Positions 7,513-62,070 of a stretch of DNA of 64,000 nt are shown here, one piece after another; within the stretch, counting starts at the first letter, position 1; each line of letters opens with the position of its first letter. The translations under genes were made by a program, and so were the position numbers. A model generated the notes under the pieces. That model made no database searches and was not told the DNA's origin. It worked only from the letters and a program-made list of their open reading frames with translations. Source of the stretch: Neolewinella aurantiaca (GTDB lineage Bacteria > Bacteroidota > Bacteroidia > Chitinophagales > Saprospiraceae); NCBI RefSeq assembly GCF_008014675.1, contig NZ_VOXD01000014.1:1-64000 (forward strand), written 5' to 3'.

Positions 7513-7530
7513 TGCACCTGCGGCCGCGCA
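7513..7530 (+). repeat. Dispersed GC 19-mer, copy 1
   Basis: Copy TGCACCTGCGGCCGCGCAA of the repeat described in the findings; it contains the palindrome GCGGCCGC and is followed by an A-run. Intergenic, between 7362 and 7721. Confidence 0.8.
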
Positions 7531-7592
7531 AAAAAATCGGCCGCAACCAACGAACGGAGCTTAGGAGGTATCAATAAGCTGACAATATAAAA

Positions 7593-7683
7593 GGGTGCAA
7601 CCCAGATTGTCGCTCAACCCCCTCCCGGCCTCCCCACATCGCTGCGCTGGGGAGGAGCAATCGCGACAATCTAGTTTGCGCCC
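7593..7683. repeat. Nested inverted repeat (cruciform-like) upstream of the 7721 gene
   Basis: Imperfect 21-nt arms at 7593-7613 and 7663-7683 (17 of 21 paired, perfect over AGATTGTCGC/GCGACAATCT) enclose a second hairpin, CCTCCCC (7629-7635) with GGGGAGG (7649-7655). The element ends about 25 nt before the promoter box at 7709. It lacks coding sequence and looks like a REP-type palindrome. Confidence 0.65.
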
Positions 7684-7708
7684 ATATAAAAAGACCGGCA
7701 GCCCAACC

Positions 7709-7716
7709 TACCTTTG
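7709..7716 (+). promoter_or_regulatory. -7 element TACCTTTG, leaderless-type
   Basis: An exact TAnnTTTG box followed by only CACC before the ATG at 7721. It fixes the start choice for that gene, because the longer in-frame reading would have to cross this promoter and the palindromic element. Confidence 0.65.
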
Positions 7717-7720
7717 CACC

Positions 7721-8764: not shown

Positions 8765-8819
8765 GTTTCTGAGTTGGCGAATCTCTGAGTTGCCGCTGTT
8801 ACCGCTCCTTTCGTTTCGC

Positions 8820-9647: not shown

Positions 9648-9651
9648 AGTG

Positions 9652-9659
9652 CGAAAATA
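9652..9659 (-). promoter_or_regulatory. -7-like element TATTTTCG before mscS
   Basis: On the minus strand TATTTTCG (seven of eight to TAnnTTTG) lies four bases from the ATG at 9647, again implying a leaderless or nearly leaderless mRNA. Confidence 0.45.
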
Positions 9660-9796
9660 GTTAAATAGTTAGGCAGTTGAGCCAGGACTGATTGGCTTGC
9701 TATGCAGTATTGTGTACGTTCTCCATTGAAAGCGGAGATGCACGTAGTTAAACGAGATGGCTTCCAAAATCAGGGTTTCCGGACCGGACGTGGCTA

Positions 9797-11149: not shown

Positions 11150-11348
11150 GGGGAGATTACAATATGATGTATTAAAAGCAATTGTAGGCAGGTCGCCTTC
11201 ACTGAGTTATGCAAACTTCACTTTGAACGGATCGTTTTGAGACTCAGTCGGCTTATATGACGTAAAAACTAAGAAAAAGCTACTAGGATTGACTGCAAAT
11301 ATACAAAATTCCTTCGCCCGCCCCGTTAAGATTAACACCTGGTTAGAT

Positions 11349-11370
11349 GTTTTGCATGAAAATGCAAAAC
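11349..11370. promoter_or_regulatory. Perfect palindrome in the peroxidase/dprA divergent region
   Basis: Arms GTTTTGCAT (11349-11357) and ATGCAAAAC (11362-11370) are perfectly complementary around GAAA. It lies in the 336-nt gap 11150-11485 between two divergent genes, where nothing else but the dprA promoter is evident. Size and symmetry suit an operator for a dimeric regulator; no T-run follows. Confidence 0.4.
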
Positions 11371-11474
11371 AATTTGTTTGCCGTCATTATATTTGCAACG
11401 CTGCGCATTGTCAAACGCTCCTTTTTTTATCCCATCCCTCCTCCCCTTTCCCGCAGCGTTTCTCCCCTCCCATT

Positions 11475-11482
11475 TACTTTTA
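11475..11482 (+). promoter_or_regulatory. -7-like element TACTTTTA before dprA
   Basis: TACTTTTA matches TAnnTTTG in seven of eight positions and is followed by GCC and the ATG at 11486. It supports that start over an in-frame ATG at 11378 and suggests a leaderless dprA mRNA. Confidence 0.45.
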
Positions 11483-11485
11483 GCC

Positions 11486-12583
11486 ATGCATCCGGATACT
11501 TTTTCCCGGCTCGCTCTCAGTCGTATGCCCAACATAGGGCCAAAGCTTTTCCGAAACCTTATCCAACATTTCATCAGTGCAGAGGAAGTTTTCCGGGCGC
11601 GGACGCAGGAGCTCTGTGAGGTAGCCGGCATTGCCCAAAAAACGGCCGATTCCTTTGGCAATACAGACCGCGCCTTTCGCGAAGCCGAAACCATAATCCG
11701 TCATGCTGAACGCCATGACATTAGTGTGCTTTGCTGCCTGGACGACAACTTCCCCTCCCGAATGCAACCGCATACCGGTGCAGCGCCAATCCTTTATTAT
11801 TACGGTGAGGCAGACCTCAACAACCCACGGACTGTCGCCGTGGTTGGCACCAGGGAAATGAGCAGCAATGGTGCCCGGCAGATTGAGCGTATCCTTGATC
11901 CTCTGACCAACTTCAGCCCACTGATCGTGAGTGGCCTCGCTTACGGCGTAGACATTTACGCCCACCGCCGCTGTCTTCAGGCCGGCCTCCCTACCCTTGC
12001 GGTTATGGGCAGCGGGTTTGATCGTATTTACCCTCAGGCACACGCCAAAACAGCTCTTCGGATGGCCGAAAACGGAGGAGGGGTACTAACTGCTTATCCT
12101 TTCTGGTCTAAACCGGAAAAGGACCACTTCCCGGCCCGCAATCGCGTAGTTGCGATGCTCTCCGACCTTACTGTCGTTGTCGAATCTGCTGCCCGGGGAG
12201 GTTCAATGATCACCGCCAGGATGGCCCACGATCTGGGCAAAAAGGTGGGTGCATGCCCCGGTCGTGGAGGTGACCCCCTTACTGAAGGCTGCAACAACCT
12301 CATCAAAACCGGTAAAGCCCACCTCATCGAATCCGCCGATGACATAATCGGACTCCTGGGATGGAAAGGTCATGTCGCTGGCCGCCAGCAATGTCTCTTC
12401 AAGAACCTTGATCCTTCTGAGCAGGCACTGATCGACCAACTCCGTGATCGGGACGGCGTCGAGATCGATGAACTTCGTTTCACCCTTCAGCAACCTCCGG
12501 CACAGTTAGCAAGCTTACTCCTCATGCTGGAAATGAAAGGCATAATAGCAGCCCTGCCAGGGCATCGGTACCGGCTTTGTTAA
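11486..12583 (+). CDS. dprA: DNA-processing protein DprA (Smf)
   Basis: Encodes 365 residues from the ATG at 11486 (MHPDTFSRLAL). Domain order is a helical N-terminal region (about 1-85), a Rossmann-like DprA core (about 95-305) with VAVVGTREMSSNG, VSGLAYGVD, GSGFDRIYP, FPARNRVVA and ESAARGGSMITA, and a C-terminal winged-helix domain (about 310-365). DprA binds incoming single-stranded DNA and loads RecA during natural transformation. It is the one competence-linked gene here, relevant to the uptake-sequence hypothesis for the dispersed 19-mer, although dprA is also common in bacteria not known to be competent. Confidence 0.95.
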   Translation: MHPDTFSRLALSRMPNIGPKLFRNLIQHFISAEEVFRARTQELCEVAGIAQKTADSFGNTDRAFREAETIIRHAERHDISVLCCLDDNFPSRMQPHTGAAPILYYYGEADLNNPRTVAVVGTREMSSNGARQIERILDPLTNFSPLIVSGLAYGVDIYAHRRCLQAGLPTLAVMGSGFDRIYPQAHAKTALRMAENGGGVLTAYPFWSKPEKDHFPARNRVVAMLSDLTVVVESAARGGSMITARMAHDLGKKVGACPGRGGDPLTEGCNNLIKTGKAHLIESADDIIGLLGWKGHVAGRQQCLFKNLDPSEQALIDQLRDRDGVEIDELRFTLQQPPAQLASLLLMLEMKGIIAALPGHRYRLC

Positions 12584-13117: not shown

Positions 13118-13118
13118 A

Positions 13119-15480: not shown

Positions 15481-16344
15481 CTAATCAATATAAAAGCCCA
15501 TTTTACCCATTTTGTAATCCCGCATGGCTTCTAACACCTCCGTTTGAGAATTCATTACGAAAGGACCTTGCTGAACGATGGGTGCACCGATGGGTATGCC
15601 CCCCAGAAGGAGAATTCGGGTCATTTCAGCCTTTCCGGTCAAAGACACACCTTCACCATCTTTACGATAGTTCAGGAGCGTGCGCCCTTCGTAGTTGAAC
15701 CCGTTGCCCGATGTAATTTCTCCGTCGAGGAGGTATGCGGCAAAGTTATAACCCTCCGGAACAGGCAGCATTACATTGGCTCCGGCAGGCAGCTCAAGTT
15801 GCCAGGCAGTAACCGGACTGTACGTCTTAACGGGGCCTTTCACCCCCATGAATTCGCCGGCAACTATTTTCAACGAAGCTCCGTTGCCAAAGTCATGACG
15901 GGGAAAGTCTTCCGCTTTTACGTTCTGGTAGCGGGGCTGAACAAATTTATGCTCGGGAGCCAGGTTAACCCAGAGTTGAATCCCTTCGAGAGTTCCTCCC
16001 TGATCAAGAAACTCTTTACTGCCCCGTTCGCTGTGAATAATCCCCATTCCGGCGGTCATCCACTGCACGTCTCCGCCCTTAAGAATCCCGGTGTTATTAC
16101 GACTGTCGCGGTGGCGCAGGCCACCACTGTACAGGAATGTCACTGGTTCGAAACCACGGTGGGGGTGTGGCCCTAAATCCAGCGGGTCATACCCTGGCTC
16201 GACCTCCCACGGTCCAAAATGGTGAAGCAAAAGGAACGGATCAATCTGCTCTACACGTTGCGTTGGCAATGGCTGATGGACAGTGACTGGTCCCATTTTC
16301 AGCGCATGAGCAGGAAGGATATTGACGATTGAGCGGGGTTTCAT
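15481..16344 (-). CDS. Pirin family protein
   Basis: Encodes 287 residues from the ATG at 16344 (MKPRSIVNILP). A longer reading back to 16476 would begin inside a copy of the dispersed 19-mer and adds a Cys-rich stretch foreign to pirins, so the inner start is chosen. The cupin metal ligands are present: His60 and His62 in GPHPHRGFE, and His104 and Glu106 in GMGIIHSERGS. Pirins are bicupin proteins; some act as quercetin 2,3-dioxygenases or redox-sensing regulators, and the role here is not determined. Confidence 0.92.
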   Translation of the reverse strand: MKPRSIVNILPAHALKMGPVTVHQPLPTQRVEQIDPFLLLHHFGPWEVEPGYDPLDLGPHPHRGFEPVTFLYSGGLRHRDSRNNTGILKGGDVQWMTAGMGIIHSERGSKEFLDQGGTLEGIQLWVNLAPEHKFVQPRYQNVKAEDFPRHDFGNGASLKIVAGEFMGVKGPVKTYSPVTAWQLELPAGANVMLPVPEGYNFAAYLLDGEITSGNGFNYEGRTLLNYRKDGEGVSLTGKAEMTRILLLGGIPIGAPIVQQGPFVMNSQTEVLEAMRDYKMGKMGFYID

Positions 16345-16457
16345 TACTGGAACTTTGGTGTACCTACACGAAACAACATAGCACCATGAGTAGTTGCAGG
16401 CCGTTACAGCAACAGACTTCTCCTCCAGGTCGTCGTATCCATTCCTAAAGGACAAGC

Positions 16458-16475
16458 GGCGGGGACGCAGGTGCA
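16458..16475 (-). repeat. Dispersed GC 19-mer, copy 2
   Basis: Minus-strand copy TGCACCTGCGTCCCCGCC, with two changes from the consensus; intergenic between pirin and the M14 peptidase, followed on the plus strand by an A-run. Confidence 0.7.
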
Positions 16476-16638
16476 AAAAAAGTTAAGAAAAGCCCCTCCT
16501 TGCCTGGCATCATCGTTGTAATCGTGGTTCAACCCCTACCCTACCGGGTTATAATCCTGTCATATCCGGTGTTGCGAAATAGCGACTTAGCCGATCTATT
16601 CCTTAGCTTTAGCCCCTCAATCAAAAACACAAGAACAC

Positions 16639-20727: not shown

Positions 20728-20746
20728 TGCACCTGCGGCCGCGCCC
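20728..20746 (+). repeat. Dispersed GC 19-mer, copy 4
   Basis: Perfect copy TGCACCTGCGGCCGCGCCC in the 330-nt intergenic stretch 20600-20929, between the divergent starts/ends of two minus-strand genes. I see no gene in that stretch. Confidence 0.85.
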
Positions 20747-20929
20747 GCCAAAATCGAGAAATGCCAACGGCCTGCCAAACCTGAACATGGTAGTAATCTG
20801 CGGCATCTTTTCGGTTTGAGCGCCTGGTCAGCCCCGTAATTCTACCAGCACTTTACAACCAATTCAAATGTTGACAGACCGCTGGTGCTCTGTCAACAAA
20901 CGATCACACGAACTAAAAGACCAAATGGT

Positions 20930-23545
20930 CTATCCCCCAAACTGCTGGTAGAAACGCTGCAGATTAGGGTCGGTCTCAACAGCTTTAATCGCGGAGATCA
21001 TGGTACCCAGCTTGGTCACGACGTCGGTTGTTCCTGCGGCTTTGGCTTCCTCGCGCATATCGTTAAGTGCTTTCGTTGCTGCGAGGCGGCGGAAGAGGCT
21101 TTGGTTCTGATCTTTAGCCATGGCAACCATCTTTTCCAGCCCGGCCGTCATCTGAGCGGGCGTTCCTTTAGCGAGCAGTGTCCGGTAACCATCCATCACG
21201 TCGAGGGCACCGTAGCCATCGGCAACCTTCATTTGCTTCTCGAAAAACGGGAGCTTAGCCGGATCCCCCGCTTCCGCGTAAAGGCTGGCCAGGGCACTGT
21301 TTACCGAAGGGTTATCCAGCGCCTCCAGCTTGGTGGCGGCTGCGGTGGCCGCAGTCGGATCGGCAACAACAAGCCCCTGCAATCCTGCAGAAACAACGGG
21401 ATAAGGCTTAGCGTCGAGCGCCATTTCGGAGATGGCCTTCAGTTCGCTGTCTTCGTTCGCAGCCAGCACCTGAATGGCCGTTGCTCGTACGCTGGAGTGC
21501 GGATCAGACTTCGCCAAACTGCGAACAACCTTCAGTTGGTTTTCATCCGCAGATTCAACGATCATGCCCAGTGCTGCTTCCCGAACGCCGTGGAACGGGT
21601 CGTTAAGCGCCATGGAAACCACCTCAGTTTTCAGGGCAGAATCTTCTTTATTACCCAAACGCTGCAGCACCAGCATCCGATCGACAAGGCTTGGTGCTCC
21701 TTTGAACTGAGCGGCCAACTCCTCGGTGGTCTTCGTGTAGTTGAACTGAGCGAGCAAAGTATGCATCGGGTCAAGCACTACTACATCGGGCTTCACACTG
21801 GAGGGGAAAGTAAACGTCTGCTTGCGTTCATCGATCACGATGTCCATCATTTCGGGAGTGGTGGATCCGTTGGTAAAGATGGCGACTTTGGTGGGAAGGC
21901 GGAATACGCCCGGTACGTTTTCGTCTGTATCCTGGGTTTGCTCCACGGTCAGCATTACTTTTCCGTCGGCGTAGCCTGTTTCTACTTTCAGGGCGGGGTG
22001 TCCGGCGCTGAGGAACCACTGATCGAAGAACCAATTGAGGTCTTCTCCGGTCAGGTCTTCGAACGCCATGCGGAGTTCGTCTACTTCTACGGCGGAGAAT
22101 TTGTTATCGTTGAGGTACTTGGTCAGGCCGGCGAAGAAGGCCTCGTCGCCCAGGTAGTCGCGCAACATGTGGAGCACGGCACCGCCCTTATTGTAGCTGT
22201 GAGCGTCGAACATCTGTTCTTTGTCCTCAAAGTCGTACCAGATCAGTTCGTGGATACCGCGCTGGGCAGAACCGAAGTACCCGGAGCGTTCGCTCATCAT
22301 ATGAAAATCGGCAGCATCGCGGCCGTGCTTTTTTTCCATCCAGAGGTACTCGCTGTAGTTGGCGAAGCCTTCGTTCAGGGTCAGGTTGCTCCAACTCTCG
22401 GTGGTGACGTAGTCGCCAAACCAGTGGTGGAACATTTCGTGCGCGACGATTTTCTCGTTGGTTTCTACGTCGATCAGTTCGCGGTCGGTACCGTGCATGA
22501 ACTCGCCGAAAATGACGGCGGTGGTGTTTTCCATTGCGCCGGAGACGTAGTCGCGTACCGCCACCTGGCTGTACTTGGCCCAAGGGTACTGTACACCGGT
22601 CACATCGCTGAAGAACGTCAGCATTTCGCGGGTGTAGGGGTAGATATCTTTGGCGTAATCCTTGAAGCCGTCTTCCATGTAGTAGTTCACGGGGATGCCG
22701 TTCCAGGGCTCGTCTTCTACGATATCGAATTCACCGACGATGAGCGCGAAGAGATAAGGGGCGTGGGGCAACTCCATATTCCAGTAGTCGGTACGGGTGC
22801 CGTCAGGATTCTTGGTAGAGTTTTCCAGTACCCCGTTGCCAAGGGTTTTGAACTTGTCCTGAACGGTTACGTACATTTCCTGGGTGCAGCGCTCGTTGGG
22901 CTTATCGATGGTCGGGAACCACCGGCTGTTGTTTTCGGTTTCGCCCTGCGTCCAGATCTGCATTGGCTTGTCTTCCGTTCCGTCGGGGTTGATGAAGAAC
23001 AGGCCTTTGTCGGAGGTAATCGCCGCAGAGCCTCCGCTTTGGGCGGGCACGGCCGTGTAGTCGAGCACGATGGTATACTCCTGGTCGCGGGTGTATTCGC
23101 GGCCAAGGTCGATGCTCACGGTTTGCTTATCGCCTTCGTAGGTGTAGTCGAGTGCTTTACCGTTCATGGTGATGCTCTTGAAATCGAAGTTTTTGGCGTC
23201 GAGCACGAGCGTTCGGCTGGCCTTGAAGATGGGCTTCAGCTTCAGGGTGGCTTTACCGATCACCATTTCCTTGGCCCAGTCGAAGCTCAGGTCCAGTCGG
23301 GTGTGCAGCAGGTCGTGGGTGCGGTTGTAGGCGGCGTTGTAGACCGGGCGCTCGTTGGGGATGACCTTCTCTGTGGGCATCACTATTTCCTCGGTTTCAA
23401 TCACGCCGTTGGCTGCTGGAGTTACGGTCATGGTGTCCAGGTTCCGGGTTTCCATTTCCGGGGCGGCCACAGTGTAGGTTTTAGGAGAACAGCCAAAAGC
23501 CAGCAAGGTGGCTAGCAGGCCGATCAAAGGCAGGGTATTACGCAT
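20930..23545 (-). CDS. M1 family zinc aminopeptidase, lipoprotein
   Basis: Encodes 871 residues. A lipobox (LLAFGC, Cys19) indicates a lipoprotein. The M1 catalytic region has the exopeptidase motif GAMENTT and the zinc site HEMFH (His369, Glu370, His373) with Glu392 in NEGFANYSEYLW. The C-terminal third (about 560-871) is built of helical HEAT-like repeats (ALNDPFHGVREAALGM, SDPHSSVRATAIQVL). It should remove N-terminal residues from peptides at the cell envelope, fitting the peptide transporter and the other proteases nearby. Several long antisense reading frames cross this gene but look like codon-bias artefacts. Confidence 0.93.
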   Translation of the reverse strand: MRNTLPLIGLLATLLAFGCSPKTYTVAAPEMETRNLDTMTVTPAANGVIETEEIVMPTEKVIPNERPVYNAAYNRTHDLLHTRLDLSFDWAKEMVIGKATLKLKPIFKASRTLVLDAKNFDFKSITMNGKALDYTYEGDKQTVSIDLGREYTRDQEYTIVLDYTAVPAQSGGSAAITSDKGLFFINPDGTEDKPMQIWTQGETENNSRWFPTIDKPNERCTQEMYVTVQDKFKTLGNGVLENSTKNPDGTRTDYWNMELPHAPYLFALIVGEFDIVEDEPWNGIPVNYYMEDGFKDYAKDIYPYTREMLTFFSDVTGVQYPWAKYSQVAVRDYVSGAMENTTAVIFGEFMHGTDRELIDVETNEKIVAHEMFHHWFGDYVTTESWSNLTLNEGFANYSEYLWMEKKHGRDAADFHMMSERSGYFGSAQRGIHELIWYDFEDKEQMFDAHSYNKGGAVLHMLRDYLGDEAFFAGLTKYLNDNKFSAVEVDELRMAFEDLTGEDLNWFFDQWFLSAGHPALKVETGYADGKVMLTVEQTQDTDENVPGVFRLPTKVAIFTNGSTTPEMMDIVIDERKQTFTFPSSVKPDVVVLDPMHTLLAQFNYTKTTEELAAQFKGAPSLVDRMLVLQRLGNKEDSALKTEVVSMALNDPFHGVREAALGMIVESADENQLKVVRSLAKSDPHSSVRATAIQVLAANEDSELKAISEMALDAKPYPVVSAGLQGLVVADPTAATAAATKLEALDNPSVNSALASLYAEAGDPAKLPFFEKQMKVADGYGALDVMDGYRTLLAKGTPAQMTAGLEKMVAMAKDQNQSLFRRLAATKALNDMREEAKAAGTTDVVTKLGTMISAIKAVETDPNLQRFYQQFGG

Positions 23546-23607: not shown

Positions 23608-23626
23608 GGGCGCGGCCGCAGGTGCA
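23608..23626 (-). repeat. Dispersed GC 19-mer, copy 5
   Basis: Perfect minus-strand copy TGCACCTGCGGCCGCGCCC, in the 343-nt intergenic region 23546-23888 upstream of the M1 aminopeptidase. The rest of that region holds no convincing gene. Confidence 0.85.
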
Positions 23627-26461: not shown

Positions 26462-26604
26462 GGGAGAGTTTTCCTTTAAGGCTTAAGGCCTGTTGGGTTC
26501 CTGTGGTGAGAAAAGCCGGTAGTATGCAATAGCCATAATTCAGCGCTACCCGTACAACGGAAATAATATCCGATTCTCCAACCATGCTCCCTCTACCTCC
26601 ACCC

Positions 26605-26623
26605 TGCACCTGCGACCGCGCCC
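26605..26623 (+). repeat. Dispersed GC 19-mer, copy 6
   Basis: Copy TGCACCTGCGACCGCGCCC, ending 23 nt before the xerD start codon and just upstream of its TACCTTGC promoter-like box. Confidence 0.8.
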
Positions 26624-26646
26624 ACAAAACCCGTACCTTGCCGATC

Positions 26647-27558
26647 ATGCAAGCCGTCTGGAAAAACAACCTCAATGCCTTTGCCGCTTACCTGAAACTG
26701 AACCGGGGCTATAGCGACCATACCTTGTCTGCTTACCGCTCAGACGTGGAAAAACTGCCCGCCTACCTGGAGCTGCGGGAATGGGAGCTTACCCCTTCGG
26801 CCATCGAGCGCTTTCACCTGGATGCCTTCATCCAGTACTTAGCGGAACTCGGTCTGGCCACCCGCTCCCAGGCCCGGTTGATCTCGGCCCTGAAGACCTT
26901 TTTCGGCTTTCTGCTCGACGAAAAACTGATCGTACACGACCCAACAGAACTGGTGAAAGCCCCCAAAATGAGTCGTAAGATCCCGGAAGTACTCACTTAT
27001 CACGAAATCCGTGAACTGCTCGGTCAAATTGACCTCAGCCTGGACCACGGTCTACGCGACCGTGCTTTACTGGAAACCCTTTATGCCTGCGGCTTACGGG
27101 TAAGCGAAGCGACCTCGCTCAGACTGACCAACCTCTATTTCAACGAAGGCTTCATCCGCGTAACGGGTAAGGGGAACAAAGAGCGCATCGTCCCGATCGG
27201 GGGCGAAGCAATCCGCCATATGGAGATTTACCTGGAATACGTGCGGCCCGTAATGCCCATCAAGCCGGAAGCCGAAAACGTTGTGTTTCTGAACCGGCGC
27301 GGCGGAGCATTGAGCCGCATTAGCGTATTTACCGCCGTAAAAAAATATGCCGCTGAGGCAGGTATTGAAAAAAATGTGAGCCCACATACGTTTCGTCACT
27401 CATTTGCGACCCACCTGATTGAAGGTGGCGCAGACCTCCGCGCCGTGCAGGAAATGCTCGGACACGAATCCATCCTTACCACTGAGATTTACACCCACCT
27501 CGATACAGACTTTCTGCGGGAGACCATCATGAGTTTCCACCCGGCCAACAAGCGATAA
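26647..27558 (+). CDS. xerD: Site-specific tyrosine recombinase XerD/XerC
   Basis: Encodes 303 residues from the ATG at 26647 (MQAVWKNNLNAF). It has a SAM-like core-binding domain (about 1-95) and a catalytic domain (about 112-295). All catalytic residues are present: Arg151 (CGLRVSEA), Lys175, His247 and Arg250 (HTFRHSFATH), His273 (LGHESI) and nucleophile Tyr282 (EIYTHLD). Length and motifs fit the housekeeping Xer recombinases that resolve chromosome dimers at dif with FtsK. XerC cannot be excluded. No mobile-element genes adjoin it. A dispersed 19-mer copy lies 23 nt upstream. Confidence 0.93.
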   Translation: MQAVWKNNLNAFAAYLKLNRGYSDHTLSAYRSDVEKLPAYLELREWELTPSAIERFHLDAFIQYLAELGLATRSQARLISALKTFFGFLLDEKLIVHDPTELVKAPKMSRKIPEVLTYHEIRELLGQIDLSLDHGLRDRALLETLYACGLRVSEATSLRLTNLYFNEGFIRVTGKGNKERIVPIGGEAIRHMEIYLEYVRPVMPIKPEAENVVFLNRRGGALSRISVFTAVKKYAAEAGIEKNVSPHTFRHSFATHLIEGGADLRAVQEMLGHESILTTEIYTHLDTDFLRETIMSFHPANKR

Positions 27559-29987: not shown

Positions 29988-30935
29988 TCAAACCACCATG
30001 CTATCATAGCCAATAACCACCTCATATCCCCGCTCGTTGAAGTATTTCCGAATTTTTTCCGGTTCATCCTCGCTCAGCGCCCAGACAAAATCGCCGCCCC
30101 AGGCGCCGAGGCTCTTGATCGCCCCTGGGAAGCCCGGAAACAGCTTCTGCTGTACGGGTATAAGGCCGAGTGTATTCCCTACGATTTCCTCATGCTCAAG
30201 CAGCAGGCGGGCGGCGGCGCGCAGGTGCAATGAACCGGTTAAAAGAGCAGTGGTGATACGGCGGATTTCCGTCTTCGCGTGTTCTGAAACCGTGGCGGAC
30301 CGGTACGCCCGGATCCCCTCTCTACTGTTCTGTTTCTGATTGAGGTAAACAAAACAGGTTTGTTGCAACCAATCGGGTTCCCAGCTGACCGGAGTCACCT
30401 TCGGGCTGGTGCCATTGCGTTCGTAAAGGATCGGCCCTTCGGCAAAGGCGCAGGCCAGGTCGTAGCCGCTGCCACCAAAAGTTTGCTCCAACAGTGCGTA
30501 AGGGTTCACCCCCAGCCACTTTGCTACCGCTGCGATCAGGGTGGAACTGCTGCCCAACCCCCACTTACGGTCGAATTGCAGGTGAGTACTCACTTCCACT
30601 CCCCGCAGTTGACGGGTGCAACCCGGGTTGAGGGTTTCGGCAGCGTATAATATCTGCAAAATCCTTGCTCTTGGATCCTCGCTTTGCACCTGCGCTCGCG
30701 CCCACTCTTCTTTATCGTAAGCGTGATTGAACCACTCCCAGCCCTCCACATCATACGCCTTCCAGTACACGTCGTGGTCCGAGGAGTCTGAAAGGTGAAC
30801 GGCCTCGAACGATTGCCCCCGACGCGTAGGTACAGCCAGGGCCGGCACACCATCCAGCACAAAATATTCGCCGGTCAGTAATAATTTACCGTGAGGTGCC
30901 AGTTGAATTGAGGGTGAGTCTGATACGTGATCCAT
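29988..30935 (-). CDS. GYDIA family GHMP kinase (mevalonate pathway-like)
   Basis: Encodes 315 residues. The N-terminus APHGKLLLTGEYFVLDG and the ATP-binding loop KWGLGSSSTLIAAVA are GHMP-kinase hallmarks, and GGSGYDLACAFAEG matches the motif that names the GYDIA family. Bacteroidota make isoprenoids by the mevalonate pathway in some lineages, and this family is placed there by homology; substrate specificity is unproven. The start is 3 nt after the CHAT gene stop. Two dispersed 19-mer copies lie in the gene, encoding ARAQVQ and LHLRAAA. Confidence 0.88.
   Translation of the reverse strand: MDHVSDSPSIQLAPHGKLLLTGEYFVLDGVPALAVPTRRGQSFEAVHLSDSSDHDVYWKAYDVEGWEWFNHAYDKEEWARAQVQSEDPRARILQILYAAETLNPGCTRQLRGVEVSTHLQFDRKWGLGSSSTLIAAVAKWLGVNPYALLEQTFGGSGYDLACAFAEGPILYERNGTSPKVTPVSWEPDWLQQTCFVYLNQKQNSREGIRAYRSATVSEHAKTEIRRITTALLTGSLHLRAAARLLLEHEEIVGNTLGLIPVQQKLFPGFPGAIKSLGAWGGDFVWALSEDEPEKIRKYFNERGYEVVIGYDSMVV
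30211..30229 (-). repeat. Dispersed GC 19-mer, copy 7 (weak, inside the GHMP kinase gene)
   Basis: TGCACCTGCGCGCCGCCGC shares the left half GCACCTGCGC but diverges on the right. Read in sense as LHLRAAA. Confidence 0.45.
30685..30703 (+). repeat. Dispersed GC 19-mer, copy 8 (inside the GHMP kinase gene)
   Basis: TGCACCTGCGCTCGCGCCC, antisense to the gene, which reads it as ARAQVQ. It forms an inverted pair with the weak copy 456 nt away. Confidence 0.8.
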
Positions 30936-35785: not shown

Positions 35786-36047
35786 AGGGATGTGAAAATT
35801 TTAAAGGTTATAATAACAAGACACTTCGGGGGCATCCTTTCCCCACTTCTTCCAGGAGGCCTGGCTAAAGCCGCGCAAAGGTACGGGCTTTTTCAATACT
35901 AAGCAAGAGCTGGTTAGAATCTTATTTCACCTGTGGCTCCCGGGCGCAATCGCAGATACAAAGTTCGCTTTCAGGAGAAATGCTCCGTGAGTTCCCGCGC
36001 CCAACGTCCTTCGAGGCCACGATCATTTACTTTGCCTGTCCCCTGCC

Positions 36048-44624: not shown

Positions 44625-45398
44625 TTGAACAATCCGCTCACCCAGTCTCCACTTCACGACACGATTATTTTTCAGGTTCCCGCTTTTGCAGTTGGGCCCC
44701 ATGGCTACCTGTCTCTACCACACCTGATCCGGATTCTGCAGGAAGCAGCAATGCAGAACTCCGTCCGGTTAAAAATTTCCAGTCCGGAAATGATTGAGGC
44801 CTACGGTTGCTCGTGGGTGGTTCGCAGACAACGCGTAGAGATAAGCAGATGGCCCGTGCTGGGGGAAGAAATCGTCGTAACGACTGCGCCTTCGGGCTTC
44901 GCAAGAAAACTACAGACCTTTCGTGACTTCCACCTCGTTGACGAAACGGGCCAAACGATCATAACCGCAGCTACACAGTGGTTGATGATGGATATTTCCT
45001 CCCGTCGGTTAAAGACGATCCCTCCGGCCGTTACCGCACTTGAAGCAGACCTTGCACCTGCGACCGCGCACCTAAAGCGCCCCGACAATAAAATCCCCGC
45101 TCCTGCTCAATCTCACCTGAGTACTAAGTCCCGGGTTACCTTCAGTCAGCTGGACTTCAACGACCATCTTACCAACCCTGTTTTCCCCGAACTTATGCTG
45201 GAGCCCCTCGGACACGACTTCCTGCGTCAGCACCTTCCGTCTTCCGCAGACATCATGTTTCATAAAGAGGCGCGCTACGGCGACACGCTCGAAGCTGTCG
45301 CCGGCTTCTCTGACGGCCCCCTGCGCTACGACCATGCGTTATTGCGTGACGGAGAAACCCTCGCGACCATGCACACTTCCTGGAAAAAACCTGCTTGA
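44625..45398 (+). CDS. Acyl-[acyl-carrier-protein] thioesterase
   Basis: Encodes 257 residues, a typical bacterial FatA/FatB-like double hot-dog enzyme. It hydrolyses acyl-ACP to release free fatty acids in the cytoplasm. The first hot-dog (about 10-135) has HLIRILQEAAMQNS and CSWVVRRQRVEISRWP; the second (about 155-257) has VTFSQLDFNDHLTNPVF, in which Asp/Asn/His lie as in the family's active site. The start read here is TTG (MNNPLTQS), as no earlier ATG is in frame. The segment LAPATAH is encoded by a dispersed 19-mer copy. Confidence 0.87.
   Translation: MNNPLTQSPLHDTIIFQVPAFAVGPHGYLSLPHLIRILQEAAMQNSVRLKISSPEMIEAYGCSWVVRRQRVEISRWPVLGEEIVVTTAPSGFARKLQTFRDFHLVDETGQTIITAATQWLMMDISSRRLKTIPPAVTALEADLAPATAHLKRPDNKIPAPAQSHLSTKSRVTFSQLDFNDHLTNPVFPELMLEPLGHDFLRQHLPSSADIMFHKEARYGDTLEAVAGFSDGPLRYDHALLRDGETLATMHTSWKKPA
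45053..45071 (+). repeat. Dispersed GC 19-mer, copy 10 (inside the thioesterase gene)
   Basis: TGCACCTGCGACCGCGCAC, read in frame as APATAH, in the linker between the two hot-dog domains. Confidence 0.75.
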
Positions 45399-49923: not shown

Positions 49924-49942
49924 AGGCGCGCACGCAGGTGCA
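49924..49942 (-). repeat. Dispersed GC 19-mer, copy 11
   Basis: TGCACCTGCGTGCGCGCCT on the minus strand, about 20 nt before the -33 box of the phenylalanine hydroxylase gene. Paired in inverted orientation with copy 12. Confidence 0.75.
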
Positions 49943-50017: not shown

Positions 50018-50749
50018 ATGTCCGCAACCATCACCGACCGTCAAGACTATTCCGCATACACCCCTGCGGATTACAACGTATGGCAGAAACTGGCCGAACG
50101 CCAGATCTCTGCCCTGGAGGCAGTAGCCTGCCGGGAGTACCTCGAGTGCCTCACTGCGCTTCATCCCGTCATTGCACCTGCGGCCCCGCCCAAATTCACC
50201 GAATTGAACAAGAAATTACGAGCCGCTCACGGCTGGTCGATCAAGGTGGTTCCCGGCTTTCTGCCCGTAGATGAGTTTTTCAGCCTGCTGGCCGGTCGTC
50301 GCTTTTGCTCCAGTACCTGGCTGCGTGGCATCGACCAGCTCGACTACCTGGAAGAGCCCGATATGTTTCACGACATCTTCGGTCACATCCCACTGTACCT
50401 CAATAAAGATTACGCAACCTTCGCCGAACGCCTCGGCAAGCTGGGCGTGAAATATGCCCACGACGAAGAGAAAGTCACCCAGCTCCAACGCCTTTACTGG
50501 TTCACGATCGAGTTTGGCGTAATGCGCCGCAATGATGAAGTCAAAGTTTACGGAGCCGGAATATGCAGCAGCTTCTCCGAAACCTGCCACATCTTTGACG
50601 ACCCGAACGTCGAGGTTGTACCCTTCGTTCTCGACGAGGTCCTCGCCCAGGACTTCGTTATCACGGAAGTACAAATGAAGTACTTCGCCATCAAGGATTT
50701 TTCCGAACTCTGGGCCGTCGTTGACCTGCTGGAAGAACGCTGGGCGTAA
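50018..50749 (+). CDS. phhA: Phenylalanine 4-monooxygenase
   Basis: Encodes 243 residues, the catalytic domain only, as in other bacterial enzymes. It hydroxylates phenylalanine to tyrosine with tetrahydropterin and oxygen. The iron ligands His118 and His123 (DMFHDIFGHIPLY) and Glu165 (WFTIEFG) are visible. A clear promoter precedes it and a terminator follows. Residues around VIAPAAPPKF are encoded by a dispersed 19-mer copy. A pterin recycling partner is not adjacent. Confidence 0.94.
   Translation: MSATITDRQDYSAYTPADYNVWQKLAERQISALEAVACREYLECLTALHPVIAPAAPPKFTELNKKLRAAHGWSIKVVPGFLPVDEFFSLLAGRRFCSSTWLRGIDQLDYLEEPDMFHDIFGHIPLYLNKDYATFAERLGKLGVKYAHDEEKVTQLQRLYWFTIEFGVMRRNDEVKVYGAGICSSFSETCHIFDDPNVEVVPFVLDEVLAQDFVITEVQMKYFAIKDFSELWAVVDLLEERWA
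50173..50191 (+). repeat. Dispersed GC 19-mer, copy 12 (inside phhA)
   Basis: TGCACCTGCGGCCCCGCCC, one change from the commonest form, read as APAAPP. Confidence 0.8.
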
Positions 50750-53556: not shown

Positions 53557-53629
53557 GTGGTTTGGTCGTTCACTTCTATTAGCACCGTATTGGGACGGTG
53601 CGTTAGTGGACGAGGCGTTTTTTCACCAA

Positions 53630-53878
53630 ACTCGACAGGCGAACTTTTTCGCGTCGCAAGGATGCTGAGAATTCACTAGGGTTACGCTTTTACCTTAGAC
53701 ACAGTCGATACCATGGCGTATTGGCGAAAAAGAATTCGACTGGCGAGTTTACCTCCGCTCGCCAGTCGAATTCTTTTTTGTCGCTCTAGGGTAAAGAAAA
53801 CCTTCATCAGGGCAGATAACATCCGTCTGCAAGCAAAGACATCTCTAGTTGTCCAACAAAAGAGTTCGCCTGTCGAGT
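53630..53878. mobile_element. MITE-like nested inverted-repeat element
   Basis: A 249-nt non-coding segment bounded by perfect 16-bp terminal inverted repeats, ACTCGACAGGCGAACT at 53630-53645 and its complement at 53863-53878. Inside is a perfect 21-bp hairpin (53727-53747 with 53758-53778, 10-nt loop). The inner arm motif ATTCGACTGGCGAGTT matches the outer repeat in 12 of 16 positions and in the same orientation, so the element holds four related sites. No transposase and no clear target duplication are seen. The inner hairpin ends in T/A runs and could also terminate transcription. Confidence 0.55.
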
Positions 53879-53947
53879 GCGGAGAAATCATTGTCCTATA
53901 ACTTGACCGTGCAACGCTCCCCCTACCCAGCTCCCTCAACCTCCGCT

Positions 53948-53966
53948 GCACCTGCGTCCGCGCCCT
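53948..53966 (+). repeat. Dispersed GC 19-mer, copy 13
   Basis: TGCACCTGCGTCCGCGCCC, intergenic, about 70 nt past the MITE-like element and upstream of the Prc gene. Confidence 0.8.
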
Positions 53967-56406: not shown

Positions 56407-56443
56407 AACGGGCTGTTGCACTACGTGCGGCAGCCCGTTTTTT
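56407..56443 (+). terminator. Rho-independent terminator of prc
   Basis: AACGGGCTG (56407-56415) pairs with CAGCCCGTT (56431-56439) and runs into six T residues. It overlaps the end of the convergent DinB gene. Confidence 0.85.
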
Positions 56444-57002
56444 ATTTGGCGGCCAGTGCTCTCTGCGCTTGTTCTATGTGTCGCCAGTTGTGGTAAATTA
56501 CTACCCGCAGAGTATCGCCCAGCCGCAGCCGGATGAGTTCCGTAAGGCTGGTTCCGGTTTTAGTGCGGGTCAGGTCTACCTTTTCTGCCAGCTTCAGTAA
56601 CTCAAGGGTTTCCTCCTGGCACCTAATGAAGCGGGGCAATTCGTCCTCTCCCACAGGGTGCGGGAAATTACCGGGGTTGGCACTTTTGGGTGTACTGATT
56701 TTCCTCATCTTTTCGCCGGGTTTCATCCCCGCTGCAAATTTGTTCCCCAACCACGAGGAGGTGAAGGTCGGTTGAGCACCTTTGTATTTTGAAGCCGCAA
56801 TTTGTTTCCTGATTTCGGGCAGGTAGTATGCGCTGTAAAAATTCAGATGGCCCAGGCATTCGAGCGCATTCCATGCGTCCGGGCGCGGCCGCAGGTGCAA
56901 TTTTTGGTTAGGATAAGCAAGGAATCCCTGAGCGATGCGGAGGTTTTTTTCGGTACGCTCCGTTAATGCTGCGAGGAGTTCTGTTGTGCTGCGGGCTTTC
57001 AT
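56442..57002 (-). CDS. DinB family metal-binding protein
   Basis: Encodes 186 residues of a four-helix bundle. Putative metal ligands are His in ECLGHLNFY (about 52) and two His in YHNWRHIEQAQRAL (about 170 and 174), the DinB/YfiT pattern. Such proteins include bacillithiol or other thiol transferases, but specificity here is unknown. The segment LHLRPRP near residue 35 is encoded by a perfect dispersed 19-mer copy and replaces a variable part of the family. Confidence 0.87.
   Translation of the reverse strand: MKARSTTELLAALTERTEKNLRIAQGFLAYPNQKLHLRPRPDAWNALECLGHLNFYSAYYLPEIRKQIAASKYKGAQPTFTSSWLGNKFAAGMKPGEKMRKISTPKSANPGNFPHPVGEDELPRFIRCQEETLELLKLAEKVDLTRTKTGTSLTELIRLRLGDTLRVVIYHNWRHIEQAQRALAAK
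56881..56899 (-). repeat. Dispersed GC 19-mer, copy 14 (inside the DinB gene)
   Basis: Perfect copy TGCACCTGCGGCCGCGCCC, sense to the gene and read as LHLRPRP. Confidence 0.85.
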
Positions 57003-57609: not shown

Positions 57610-57653
57610 TCAGAGGAGCTAAACATGATTATAAGCCGAATATACGCAGGCGG

Positions 57654-58106: not shown

Positions 58107-58220
58107 AACTGCAAGATGCCTGATCACCTGAAACTGGCGGGGGGCGCAGGGCTAACGCATAGAATTCGATTTTAAGCTTTTAGCTTGAGATCATAGTCAC
58201 CACCTAACAGCTTGCAACCC

Positions 58221-58295
58221 AAAACGCTTAGCGTTTTCAGAAGCCCATCCCCCGTGGGACCGCCGAAGGCAGCAGCGAAGCTCACGGGTTGGGCT
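58221..58295. repeat. Palindromes in the 307-nt intergenic stretch before the giant surface protein
   Basis: AAAACGCTTAGCGTTTT (58221-58237) is followed by an imperfect inverted repeat, AGCCCATCCCCCGTG (58242-58256) with CACGGGTTGGGCT (58283-58295). No gene is seen in 58107-58413; these elements look REP-like or structured. Confidence 0.55.
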
Positions 58296-58413
58296 GGGGG
58301 TCCAACACGGCTTAACTAGCCTATGCATTAGACCCGGCGGAGGGCGGGGAAAGTTTTCAGGTACTTATGGAATCCTTCCTTGCCCGTCGTCCCTAGGAAA
58401 AAACCAACGGACT

Positions 58414-61400
58414 ATGCGCTATTTTTTCCTCTTGCTTCTTGTAACCTTTCTTTGCACCTGCGGCCGCGCCCAGGTCACCGTTACCGCATCCATTGCCCTG
58501 GCTGACGACCAGTGCAACCCGGTCATCAACGACCCCAATACGGATTGCATCAGCGTGCCGGCCGGCAACGATATGCTGAGCTACCTGCCCGGGCAGGACG
58601 GCGACATCATCATTACTTACCGGCTCACCAACAACACGGCGGGAACGATCACCCAGGCATCCGTTACGGACAGCGACCGCGGCTCTATCGTTCCCGTTTC
58701 AGTCGTCAACATCCCTCCCGGCACGACCGTAACCGCCAACCGTATCTACCCCGCCGAGACCACCCCCCGCACAGTGACGCCAACGGTAACCGCTAACGTC
58801 GAAAATTCCGCCGGAGCCAGCCTGAGCGTGACCAATGACTATACCCTTGATGTTGTCGCTCCCGAAGTCTCCGTTGAATTCGGTGTTGCCCGCCAGGCCG
58901 ATGTATGCGACAACGAGCCAACTGCCCCCAACTGCCCTGTCCCCTACGGAGCGCTGAACGGACAAACCGTAACCATCGGTGCCCTCGATACCTTCACCAC
59001 CCGCTTCGCATGGACCAATTCCGGGCTCAGTACTTTCGACATGGAGAACCTTGTCGATCAGGATGATTTTCAGATCGCCAATACCGGTTTCGATCAGGAA
59101 CCTGGCCAAACGCTCATCTCCTCCCGCCACTGGGAGGCACCCGCCGCCCCCGGCACTTACAACTACAGCCAAACCCTCACCGTAACCGACATGGGAGGAA
59201 ACGTAGTAACCGAAACCGTAACCTTCATCGTGATCGTTGAAGCACCCATGGTAGAAGTTGAATTCGGCGTCGCCCGCCAGGCCGATGTTTGCGACAACGA
59301 GCCAACTGCCCCCAACTGTCCTGTCCCCTACGGAGCGCTGAACGGACAAACCGTAACCGTCGGTGCCCTCGACACCTTCACCACCCGCTTCGCATGGACC
59401 AATTCCGGGCTCGGTGCTTTCGACATGGAGAACCTTGTCGATCAGGACGGCTTCGAAGTCGCAAGTACCGGTTTCGATCAGGAACCTGGCCAAACCCTCA
59501 TTTCCTCCCGTCACTGGGAGGCACCCGCCGCCCCCGGCACCTACAACTACAGCCAAACCCTCACTGCAACCGACATGGGAGGAAACGTAGTAACCGAAAC
59601 CGTAACCTTCATCGTGATCGTTGAAGCACCCATGGTAGAAGTAGAATTCGGCGTCGCCCGCCAGGCCGATGTTTGCGACAACGAGCCAACTGCCCCCAAC
59701 TGTCCTGTCCCCTACGGCGCGCTGACCGGACAGACCGTAACCGTCGGTGCCCTAGATACCTTCACCACCCGCTTCGCATGGACCAATTCCGGGCTCGGTA
59801 CTTTCGACATGGAGAACCTTGTCGATCAGGACGGCTTCGAAGTCGCAAGTACCGGCTTTAATCAGGAACCTGGGCAGACCCTCATTTCCTCCCGCCACTG
59901 GGAGGCACCCGCCGCCCCCGGCATTTACAACTACAGCCAAACCCTCACCGCAACCGACATGGGGGGCAACGTAGTAACCGAAACCGTAACCTTCATCGTG
60001 ATCGTTGAAGCACCCATGGTAGAAGTAGAATTCGGCGTCGCCCGCCAGGCCGATGTATGCGACAACGAGCCCCTCGCCCCCGTCTGCCCCGTATCCTACG
60101 GAGCGCTGAACGGACAGACCGTAACCGTCGGGGCCCTCGACACCTTCACCACCCGCTTCGCATGGACCAATTCCGGGCTCGGTACTTTCGATATGGAGAA
60201 CCTTGTCGATCAGGATGGCTTCGAAGTCGCAAGTACCGGCTTTAATCAGGAACCTGGCCAAACCCTCATTTCCTCCCGCCACTGGGAGGCACCCGCCGCC
60301 CCCGGCACTTACAACTACAGCCAAACCCTAACCGCAACCGACATGGGAGGAAACGTAGTAACCGAAGCCGTAACCTTCATCGTGATCGTTGAAGCACCCA
60401 TGGTCGAGGTGGAGTTTGGCGTTGCGAACCAAAACGATGTATGCCCGGATGAACCCGTTGCTCCTAATTGCCCGGTCCCGTATGGCCCGCTAAACGGCCA
60501 GATGGTGACCGTAGGGGCAGGAGACACCCTGACCACCCGCTATGCCTGGACAAACACCGGACTCGGCGAATACGATCTCATCAATATAGTTGATCAGGAT
60601 AATTTCCAGGTCGCCAACACCGGGTTCGATCAGCAGCCCGGTCAGACCCTCATCTCTTCACGCCATTGGCCCGCTCCGGCGGAGCCGGGCATTTATGATT
60701 GGAGCCAGACCCTGACCATCACGGATAAGGGAGGAAACACACTGGTCAGAACGGTTACATTTAAAGTACAAGTAGATTGCAACCTGTCAGACATCGCCCC
60801 CCCTACCGCACTTTGCCGCGACCGTAGTTTCACCGTATTAGAGGGAACGACATTGAACATCAACCCAAGTGACCTGAACGACGGCAGCTTCGATGGTTGT
60901 GGTCCCATTGCCGGGGGCAGCATCGACATCAGCAGCTTCACTTGTGCTGACGAAGGCATTAATGTAGTGACGCTAACCGTCGGCGACAGCAACGGGAACC
61001 TGGCAAGCTGCACCTCCGATGTAACCATCAACGTGGAGGGAATCATCTACGAGGGGATCAACAATGACTGTGAGTCTTCGACTTCTCCGGTAACGGGAGG
61101 GCAAGCCTGGCAGGACATCTTGTCGCAGGACGGTCAGGTAATCGCGCAGGTGATCATCGGCAGCAACACCAATATCGCTGCGGTGAGAGCAACCGTTTAT
61201 AAATCTGCAGAAATGACCGAATTAGTAAGAGGACAGGCATACCTCAGCAAACGCATCAACCTGGAAATGCTTGATGCAGGAGACAATGTGGTACAGCCCA
61301 ATACCGACCCTATTTACGTTCGCCTCTACTATACCGAAGCTGAAATTGCGGCCCTGACGGCTGCGTCTCCGGGTAGCAGCCCGGCAACATTTACTGTCTT

Positions 61401-62070
61401 TAAAACCAGCGACACTGACTGCGGAGCCGGCTATTCGGGCGCCAACGCTTTAGGGATGAACACTTCTTTCCACAGCACCGGCTGCACCGGAGAGGATGCC
61501 TACCTCGAATTCTTTACCGGTCAGTTTTCCACCTTCTACCTTTTCGCAACTGAAGCCATCCTTCCGGTAGAGATGACCAGCTTCGAAGCCCATGCTGACG
61601 ATAAGCAACGCGCAGTTCTCAACTGGTCTACTGCTACGGAATCAGGCAGTAGCCGCTTCGACGTTGAGCACAGTTCCGATGGGCGCACTTTCCGTTATGT
61701 GGGCGCGGTCGCAGGTGCAGGGGAAAGTTATGAAGAGCGACGTTACGAATACCTCCACCCCTCCCCGGTTTCTGGCATCAACTACTACCGCCTTCGCCAG
61801 GTAGACCTGGACGGTACCGAAACCCTGAGCGATGTTCGGGAGGTTACCATTACCGGCCCCGTTAAACTCGTCGCGTACCCCAACCCGGCTACGGACATAC
61901 TTTCGCTCAGAGGCTTTACCGGAGGCTCCGTCTCCGTGGTCGATATGCAGGGGCGTACGGTTCTCCGCACCACCTTGTCTGAATTCGGCTCATTGAACGT
62001 AGCGGAATTGGCCACAGGAGTTTATCTGTTGCGTACCGGGGAAGAGAGCATCCGCTGGATCAAACAGTAA
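58414..62070 (+). CDS. Giant secreted repeat protein with T9SS sorting domain
   Basis: Encodes 1218 residues. The signal peptide (about 1-19) ends CTCGRAQ, encoded by a dispersed 19-mer copy. After about 130 residues of DUF11-like sequence come five repeats of exactly 128 residues (384 bp) at 58873-60792; repeats 1-4 are nearly identical in DNA and repeat 5 has diverged. Each carries VEFGVARQADVCDNEP-like and GQTLISSRHWEAPAAPG phrases. A HYR-like domain (about 795-880), a Cys-containing region and a type A T9SS sorting domain (about 1140-1218; LVAYPNPATDILSL, ATGVYLLRT) follow. It is probably a surface adhesin; the ligand is unknown. Confidence 0.9.
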   Translation: MRYFFLLLLVTFLCTCGRAQVTVTASIALADDQCNPVINDPNTDCISVPAGNDMLSYLPGQDGDIIITYRLTNNTAGTITQASVTDSDRGSIVPVSVVNIPPGTTVTANRIYPAETTPRTVTPTVTANVENSAGASLSVTNDYTLDVVAPEVSVEFGVARQADVCDNEPTAPNCPVPYGALNGQTVTIGALDTFTTRFAWTNSGLSTFDMENLVDQDDFQIANTGFDQEPGQTLISSRHWEAPAAPGTYNYSQTLTVTDMGGNVVTETVTFIVIVEAPMVEVEFGVARQADVCDNEPTAPNCPVPYGALNGQTVTVGALDTFTTRFAWTNSGLGAFDMENLVDQDGFEVASTGFDQEPGQTLISSRHWEAPAAPGTYNYSQTLTATDMGGNVVTETVTFIVIVEAPMVEVEFGVARQADVCDNEPTAPNCPVPYGALTGQTVTVGALDTFTTRFAWTNSGLGTFDMENLVDQDGFEVASTGFNQEPGQTLISSRHWEAPAAPGIYNYSQTLTATDMGGNVVTETVTFIVIVEAPMVEVEFGVARQADVCDNEPLAPVCPVSYGALNGQTVTVGALDTFTTRFAWTNSGLGTFDMENLVDQDGFEVASTGFNQEPGQTLISSRHWEAPAAPGTYNYSQTLTATDMGGNVVTEAVTFIVIVEAPMVEVEFGVANQNDVCPDEPVAPNCPVPYGPLNGQMVTVGAGDTLTTRYAWTNTGLGEYDLINIVDQDNFQVANTGFDQQPGQTLISSRHWPAPAEPGIYDWSQTLTITDKGGNTLVRTVTFKVQVDCNLSDIAPPTALCRDRSFTVLEGTTLNINPSDLNDGSFDGCGPIAGGSIDISSFTCADEGINVVTLTVGDSNGNLASCTSDVTINVEGIIYEGINNDCESSTSPVTGGQAWQDILSQDGQVIAQVIIGSNTNIAAVRATVYKSAEMTELVRGQAYLSKRINLEMLDAGDNVVQPNTDPIYVRLYYTEAEIAALTAASPGSSPATFTVFKTSDTDCGAGYSGANALGMNTSFHSTGCTGEDAYLEFFTGQFSTFYLFATEAILPVEMTSFEAHADDKQRAVLNWSTATESGSSRFDVEHSSDGRTFRYVGAVAGAGESYEERRYEYLHPSPVSGINYYRLRQVDLDGTETLSDVREVTITGPVKLVAYPNPATDILSLRGFTGGSVSVVDMQGRTVLRTTLSEFGSLNVAELATGVYLLRTGEESIRWIKQ
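58453..58471 (+). repeat. Dispersed GC 19-mer, copy 15 (in a signal peptide)
   Basis: Perfect copy TGCACCTGCGGCCGCGCCC, read as CTCGRA in a frame different from the other plus-strand genes; it encodes the signal-peptidase region of the giant surface protein. Confidence 0.85.
58873..60792 (+). repeat. Five tandem 384-bp repeats
   Basis: Units start at 58873, 59257, 59641, 60025 and 60409, each exactly 384 bp. Long identical stretches link units 1-4; unit 5 is clearly diverged, and the boundary after unit 5 is less exact. They encode the 128-residue repeats of the surface protein. Confidence 0.92.
61701..61719 (-). repeat. Dispersed GC 19-mer, copy 16 (inside the giant surface protein gene)
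   Basis: TGCACCTGCGACCGCGCCC on the minus strand, antisense to the gene, which reads it as GAVAGA. Confidence 0.8.

Follow-up and report, generated by a model that had tools for sequence, protein, structure and literature searches.

Why should one GC-rich word of 19 bases recur every few kilobases, on both strands, in the DNA of Neolewinella aurantiaca? The question is raised by a window of 64,000 nucleotides (assembly GCF_008014675.1, contig NZ_VOXD01000014.1, positions 1 to 64,000), in which a first-pass annotation had listed 16 copies and proposed a site read by a dimeric or two-part DNA-binding protein, or a DNA uptake sequence. Our analysis confirms that the observation is real and larger than first described. 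The 9-mer GCACCTGCG shared by the copies occurs 17 times in the window (mean 0.52 and maximum 3 in 100 shuffles): all 16 listed positions carry it, displaced by at most one base, six copies contain GCGGCCGC as had been noted, and the 17th occurrence, at 2511 on the reverse strand, lacks the remainder of the motif. The 19-mer with up to three mismatches is found 18 times (0.19 expected), and a weight matrix adds three sites to the original list, at 1683, 11595 (inside dprA) and 35942, all on the reverse strand and scoring 18.7-21.7 bits. The copy at 30211, previously called weak, is indeed a variant, at 16.3 bits.

The window is typical of its own genome (G000; 5,995,659 bases in 104 contigs), with 19 matrix sites as compared with an average of about 20 per 64 kb in a 464-kb sample. 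The exact 19-mer is present genome-wide in 301 copies (139 forward, 162 reverse), and the same word read backwards in none. At a cut of 15 bits the matrix identified 149 sites in this sample (7.7% of the genome), a mean spacing of 3.1 kb that bears out the earlier estimate of one copy about every 4 kb; by extrapolation, the whole genome would carry some 1,900 sites if the remainder is alike. Site scores fall into a distinct class, with a median of 32 bits and a 5th percentile of 19. All matrices were seeded by hand and were trained and scanned on the same samples, with chance counts of 0-1 per sample in an order-1 Markov control covering at most the first five stretches. Aligned copies show that the motif extends beyond 19 bases, with a pyrimidine-rich upstream part (c....AAcC.t.C.tTGCACCTGCG) and an A-rich downstream part, so that the length of the tag is 19 to 35 bases. 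Across the genus samples the matrices hold 17.9-30.7 bits, where about 23.5 bits are needed for uniqueness in 6 Mb (our own arithmetic). Both in the window and in the genome, copy number lies far above chance.

Close relatives carry the motif as well. The S41-protease protein of the window finds its best matches in records of Neolewinella and Lewinella. The NCBI taxonomy places Neolewinella in Lewinellaceae (Saprospirales, Bacteroidota), and the relatives include N. persica (G005), N. agarilytica (G002), N. lacunae (G006), N. antarctica (G019), N. maritima (G009), N. xylanilytica (G007), N. marina (G016), N. litorea (G013), N. aquimaris (G017), Lewinella sp. IMCC34191 (G001), Lewinella sp. JB7 (G004) and Lewinellaceae SD302 (G011). 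Among 40 genomes searched, the exact spelling occurs in 19, N. aurantiaca included, all of them genus members and with 3 to 360 copies each; for N. lacunae, G003, G008, G010 and G018, only these exact-pattern counts were made. The two genus members of 21 with no exact copy are IMCC34191 and SD302, in both of which word counts returned a top word similar in shape to the motif. A motif word is also in the top ten, though not first, in N. xylanilytica, N. marina, N. aquimaris and G020. Matrix scans of 14 other genus members were all positive, each with its own spelling; they found a total of 434 sites in 1.82 Mb, with densities of 15.3-37.2 per 100 kb. A degenerate pattern run over 395 genomes of the phylum gave 528 hits in N. 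aurantiaca and 292 in the whole genome of N. aquimaris (the reversed pattern gave none in the latter), whereas the 393 genomes from outside the genus yielded a single hit in six cases and none in 387, the latter including four others of the same family. Among the genomes searched, the motif is restricted to the genus. The spellings favoured by the matrices are as follows.

N. aurantiaca (G000): TTGCACCTGCGnCCGCGCCC
G012: TTGCACCTGCGGCCCCGCCC
G014: GCACCCGCGGCAGCGCCC
N. antarctica (G019): GCACCCGCGACCGCGCCC
Lewinella sp. JB7 (G004): GCTCCCGCGnnCCCGCCC
G020: GCACCCGCGCGCCGCCGCC
N. xylanilytica (G007): TTGCtCCtGCGCnCCGgCGCC
Lewinella sp. IMCC34191 (G001): TTTTACCTGCGCTCCGCCGCC
Lewinellaceae SD302 (G011, the most distant): CATTGCTACTTTGn(t)AGCCAAAA

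These spellings do not sustain the dimeric site with a free centre that had been proposed. Spellings of relatives such as GCACCTGCGGCCCCGCCC no longer contain the GCG..CGC dyad, the two central bases are variable in N. aurantiaca but fixed in some relatives, and the spacing of the sites reveals an oriented, asymmetric signal. Neither of the two outcomes by which the first-pass annotation was to be refuted, a chance-level copy number and absence from close relatives, came about, and a site read by a protein, possibly an uptake sequence, is still the best class of explanation, with its dimeric component left unsupported.

The arrangement of sites along the two strands was analysed in N. aurantiaca and 14 other genomes, after removal of overlaps in JB7 (7.8 kb) and SD302 (10.5 kb) and with N. 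agarilytica (45 kb) excluded. Neighbouring N. aurantiaca sites with at most two mismatches alternate in orientation in 87 of 115 cases, a value reached by none of 20,000 shuffles. Matrix sites alternate in 110 of 144 cases in this genome and in 263 of 353 in the other 14, and the fraction exceeds one half in each of the 15 genomes (lowest 8/14 in N. marina, highest 21/23 in IMCC34191). Pairs in the same orientation are strongly depleted below 3 kb, with 16 observed and 69 expected in N. aurantiaca and 44 as against 150 in the other 14, while pairs in opposite orientations in those 14 stay close to expectation (79 for -,+ and 83 for +,-, 74.8 expected for each). A site thus keeps its distance from others of like orientation but is almost indifferent to those of opposite orientation, and each strand holds its own even array. 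Long stretches were available only for N. aurantiaca and N. persica, where the gaps per strand average 6.2 kb and 6.4 kb with coefficients of variation of 0.52 and 0.51 (about 1 under random spacing); values of 0.38-0.61 in the other samples are biased low, as 20-kb pieces hide long gaps. Even spacing within one orientation would follow if each site serves one side only, be it through directional import or through a mechanism like that of Chi.

How individual sites evolve was examined in 19 orthologous pairs, covering eight sites from the window and from one further 20-kb stretch (L253) compared with seven of the closer relatives. Pairs were obtained from six (G008, G003, N. persica, G018, G010 and N. 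agarilytica) and represent alignable DNA only, much of it coding. In 18 of the 19 the alignment is ungapped across the site, and identity amounts to 293/306 letters (96%) in the motif and 1002/1358 (74%) in the flanks. In alignable DNA, sites change by substitution, with the motif more conserved than its surroundings. Losses also occur: the site at 26605 is absent in N. persica, those at 30685 and L253:8575 are absent in G003, and 20728 lies in DNA that is unalignable in three relatives. The sites of the window, together with dprA, are as follows.

1683..1701, reverse: weak copy TGCATCTACGTCTGCGCCC inside the open reading frame (ORF) 1570-4509; 18.7 bits
7513..7531, forward: copy with 2 mismatches; 36.3 bits
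11378..12583, forward: dprA, for DNA processing protein A, which belongs to the standard set of transformation proteins; PF02481 match at G000:C11:11708-12325
11595..11613, reverse: degenerate copy inside dprA; 21.7 bits; aligned stretch of G008 identical at 16/17 positions
16457..16475, reverse: copy with 2 mismatches at the extreme start of ORF 15481-16476 (reverse); 31.7 bits
17367..17385, forward: exact copy in an M14-peptidase gene, frame APAAAP; exact in G003, N. persica and N. agarilytica, 1 mismatch in G008 and G018
20728..20746, forward: exact copy outside called genes; no alignable DNA in G008, G003 and N. agarilytica
23608..23626, reverse: exact copy outside called genes
26605..26623, forward: exact copy in the 5'-terminal part of the tyrosine-recombinase ORF 26584-27558; one mismatch in G008, missing from N. 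persica
30211..30229, reverse: variant copy TGCACCTGCGCGCCGCCGC inside ORF 29988-30935; 16.3 bits; letters identical in G008 and G003
30685..30703, forward: exact copy inside ORF 29988-30935 (reverse); 1 mismatch in G008, absent in G003
35942..35960, reverse: weak copy TGTATCTGCGATTGCGCCC; 20.4 bits
38510..38528, reverse: copy with 1 mismatch
45053..45071, forward: copy with 1 mismatch in the acyl-ACP thioesterase gene 44625-45398
49924..49942, reverse: copy with 1 mismatch, forming a close divergent pair with 50173
50173..50191, forward: copy with 1 mismatch in the gene for an aromatic amino acid hydroxylase; unchanged in G008
53947..53965, forward: exact copy upstream of an S41 protease; present in G003 too, with a different upstream flank there
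56881..56899, reverse: exact copy in the DinB_2 gene 56442-57002; retained in G003 and G010, 2 mismatches in N. persica
58453..58471, forward: exact copy where ORF 58414-62070 begins with a segment resembling a signal peptide (CTCGRAQ); retained in N. agarilytica, 1 mismatch in G003 and N. persica
61701..61719, reverse: exact copy inside ORF 58414-62070; exact in N. agarilytica, 1 mismatch in N. persica, 2 in G003

At shared sites near the S41 protease, the letters differ between species in all five groups examined. G012 has its own spelling, CACCTGCG, at all three of its shared sites, where N. maritima reads CACCGGCG twice and CACCCGCG once and both JB7 and N. aquimaris read CACCCGCG; likewise, a shared site reading CACCTGCG in G015 reads CACCCGCG in N. 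marina and N. litorea.

The reading that we favour, with slightly less than even confidence, is a genus-wide tag of self DNA, similar in action to the uptake sequences of Neisseria and Haemophilus and read directionally. A putative surface or periplasmic reader would bind the motif on free DNA and so give conspecific DNA an advantage in uptake or processing, preferential import would spread and maintain the sites, and a reader acting one way from its site would require an evenly spaced array on each strand. The role of this reader in DNA uptake, its directionality and the upkeep of sites by biased import are what we infer. Uptake is preferred because a difference in letters at shared sites requires a force acting on many sites together, and biased import would supply one. 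The motif matches published uptake sequences in its species spellings at a maintained density, its extragenic excess, its high information content and its confinement to a single genus (PMC3630211, PMC1939737, PMC12616744, PMC7811141, PMC2346458). With the DNA uptake sequence (DUS) of Neisseriaceae it shares numerous copies on either strand, placed within genes as well as between them, and species dialects that each reach high copy number (PMC3630211); unlike the DUS, the motif spans 19-35 rather than 10-12 bases, and the DUS is about 3 to 8 times denser by our own arithmetic. Like the uptake signal sequence (USS) of Pasteurellaceae, which comes in two dialects (PMC1939737, PMC12616744), the motif consists of a core with extended flanks and is commoner outside genes than expected. 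The traits of these systems found here are over-representation on both strands, species dialects at kept density, point substitution, extragenic excess and the presence of comEC and dprA: ComEC was identified in all 16 genus genomes searched and DprA in 15 of the 16, the one miss being a genome that is 55% complete. Two further traits, a type IV pilus machine with a minor-pilin receptor (as judged from its ATPase) and a distribution free of orientation (as judged from viral contigs), do not appear.

Several observations weigh against an uptake tag, foremost that the spacing depends on orientation and that a pilus ATPase is apparently missing, neither of which matches uptake sequences. The exclusion between like-oriented sites has no counterpart for the 9-base Haemophilus-type USS in viral contigs, a yardstick of 36 of 76 non-redundant viral loci above a density cut that represents prophage-related DNA and not chromosomes. 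There, neighbours alternate in 93 of 184 cases, as at random and unlike the alternation in Neolewinella, and the mild avoidance below 1 kb affects both orientations alike (same, 39 versus 49 expected; opposite, 42 versus 53); a Neisseria yardstick (5 loci, 37 sites) was too small. Uptake by H. influenzae, moreover, is reported to be independent of orientation (PMC1939737). As for the machinery, PF00437, the pilus/secretion ATPase family, gives only short partial matches of at most 25.5 bits in the 16 genus genomes, exceeding the cut-off of 24.9 by little in eight of them and mostly in frames near 950 aa, which we take for other ATPases; a relative at the level of the order (G029) scores 409.7 bits. 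The receptor of the DUS, ComP, is a type IV minor pilin (PMC12061091), a receptor class that is probably missing from the genus, pilins and secretins not having been searched. With no convincing type IV pilus ATPase, the motif is not filed with the known DUS and USS systems. Spelling is not strictly host-bound either: N. maritima has CACCGGCG at two shared sites though its matrix favours CACCCGCG, so that letters follow the host partly. Two members of the same family, sampled over 100 kb (G021) and 80 kb (G022), have no comparable word; a repeated word of the former, GTAATTGCG, was dropped, as it came largely from overlapping loci counted twice.

An unusual route of transformation does exist in the phylum, as the case of Riemerella anatipestifer indicates: this member of Bacteroidota is transformable and needs ComEC, DprA, ComF and RecA together with four more proteins that have no homology to well-known machinery (PMC8459023). 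Among the Riemerella-specific genes DUF5689 alone was searched for, and this domain of a transformation gene occurs in one of 21 genus genomes, which rejects it as a genus-wide reader. Directly after comEC, N. aurantiaca encodes a protein of 1326 aa (L432:7213-11193) with a CarboxypepD_reg domain and a weak sorting tail of the type IX secretion system. It is matched strongly, and in many cases more than once, in 11 of 21 genus genomes but only weakly (best E 5e-11 or weaker) in 10 of 21, and as the reader for the whole genus this secreted protein is rejected too. Both failures count against an uptake tag, as does the literature: to judge by titles and the starts of abstracts, no paper on Lewinella competence or Neolewinella repeats bears on the motif, nor is it described in any of the open-licence papers listed on DNA uptake sequences or self-DNA uptake in Bacteroidetes or Bacteroidota.

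Chi is an oriented site used per strand and found several kilobases apart; described Chi sites are 5-8 bases long and usually follow the direction of replication. The main rival explanation, which we consider unlikely yet serious, is an oriented site of this kind, at which a helicase-nuclease of the AddAB/RecBCD type moving along broken or incoming DNA would switch from degradation to recombination. An even array on each strand is what an enzyme reading one orientation only would require, and the exclusion between like-oriented sites on near-independent strands in 14 genomes, the occurrence on each strand of roughly one site in 6 kb, the absence of a firm link to gene direction and the restriction to a genus all agree with it. 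It is orientation-specific spacing that is observed, however, not orientation-specific action. Unlike Chi, the motif is long (17.9-30.7 bits as against 5-8 bases); it also looks strand-balanced, with a strand excess per 20 kb of between -2 and +2. The comparison of strand bias with replication that the first-pass annotation had suggested could be made through local GC skew only, the origin and terminus not being located, and gave no significant relation (23 pieces of 20 kb, Spearman 0.27, p 0.22). Species spellings at shared sites are also hard to explain under this rival in the absence of a force on many sites.

A binding site for a chromosome-organising protein or a polar barrier, that is, a loop anchor or a translocase roadblock spaced on both strands, is improbable in our estimation. 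It would accommodate the even coverage, as no gap between sites exceeds 9.2 kb in 464 kb of N. aurantiaca, and the geometry of close pairs in that genome, in which divergent pairs below 1.5 kb are in excess (38) and convergent ones scarce (7, with 17.1 expected for each). N. persica and N. antarctica share this divergent lean, but the other 12 genomes do not (33 and 30, 26.3 expected for each). The near-independence of opposite orientations below 3 kb in the 14 genomes is unlike paired loop anchors, and the strong dependence of spelling on species likewise speaks against such a role.

A regulatory or terminator element tied to genes is very unlikely. With genes of N. aurantiaca called by an ad hoc hexamer-based caller (337 genes, 84.5% coding; its calls were looked at for six ORFs of the window), 82 of the 149 sites lie outside called genes, where 23 are expected, with a slight preference for spacers that separate divergent genes (29 of 80 sites, 28% of spacer bases). 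On the other side, spacers that separate convergent genes show no enrichment (10 of 80 sites, 21% of spacer bases), the remaining 67 sites fall inside genes, in either orientation, and no firm orientation of sites relative to neighbouring genes is seen in this genome. Of the sites inside genes, 18 are within 75 bases of a start. The genes that host copies are ordinary ones, such as those for the aromatic amino acid hydroxylase, the DinB-like protein and the acyl-ACP thioesterase. Some copies encode CTCGRAQ, but a signal peptide or protein repeat is rejected, because the in-gene copies are spread over five of the six strand-and-frame classes (11-17 each, with one in the sixth) and more than half of all sites lie outside genes. 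Least credible of all is a short self-inserting mobile repeat of the repetitive extragenic palindrome (REP) or miniature inverted-repeat transposable element (MITE) type, which the motif resembles in its many short dispersed copies with a conserved core, in occasional close inverted pairs and in the motif-free or unalignable DNA of relatives at some sites, but from which it differs in its position within conserved genes, in the lack of any evident hairpin in the differing spellings (by eye), in the unrelated-looking DNA between the close pairs examined and in the missing insertion signature of 18 of 19 aligned pairs. An insertion element is rejected for alignable sites by these pairs, and also by the DNA between the close pairs.

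Other repeats were seen alongside. A repeat of about 190 bases occupies the window at about 58140-58350, just upstream of the motif copy at 58453, with at least 13 more copies in the genome at 78-93% identity, and the DNA at about 53625-53885 is related to a repeat found on many contigs of G003. The 11-mer GAGTCGGGAGT constitutes a second repeat family of N. aurantiaca (28 occurrences, 0.2 expected, in the 464-kb sample made up of the window and L242-L261) that is not in the top lists of the sampled relatives. Over-represented words elsewhere are ACATCGGATGT in N. xylanilytica (L272-L281) and G020 (L417-L420), GATAGCTATCG in N. xylanilytica (L272-L281) and GAGTGTGTATG in N. persica (L282-L291). 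Within the window, two oppositely oriented ORFs, 20885-23515 (forward, 876 aa) and 20930-23545 (reverse, 871 aa), share almost their entire length.

To our knowledge, only two families are on record as having genome-wide uptake sequences, and both possess type IV pili. It is possible, although on balance doubtful, that the motif of Neolewinella represents a third, independently evolved sequence for self-recognition in uptake and the first in Bacteroidota, working without type IV pili through import or processing in one direction, with two near-independent arrays, one per strand, and a spelling that drifts with the reader of each species. If the signal is instead like Chi, it would be far longer than the Chi sites known to us and would be evidence that dialects of Chi can arise inside a single genus. 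As an uptake tag, a motif that forms dialects in members of Bacteroidota with no apparent pilus ATPase would provide an independent case in which to weigh biased uptake against selection for recombination with kin, and the two near-independent per-strand arrays would be a quantitative sign of a directional reader.

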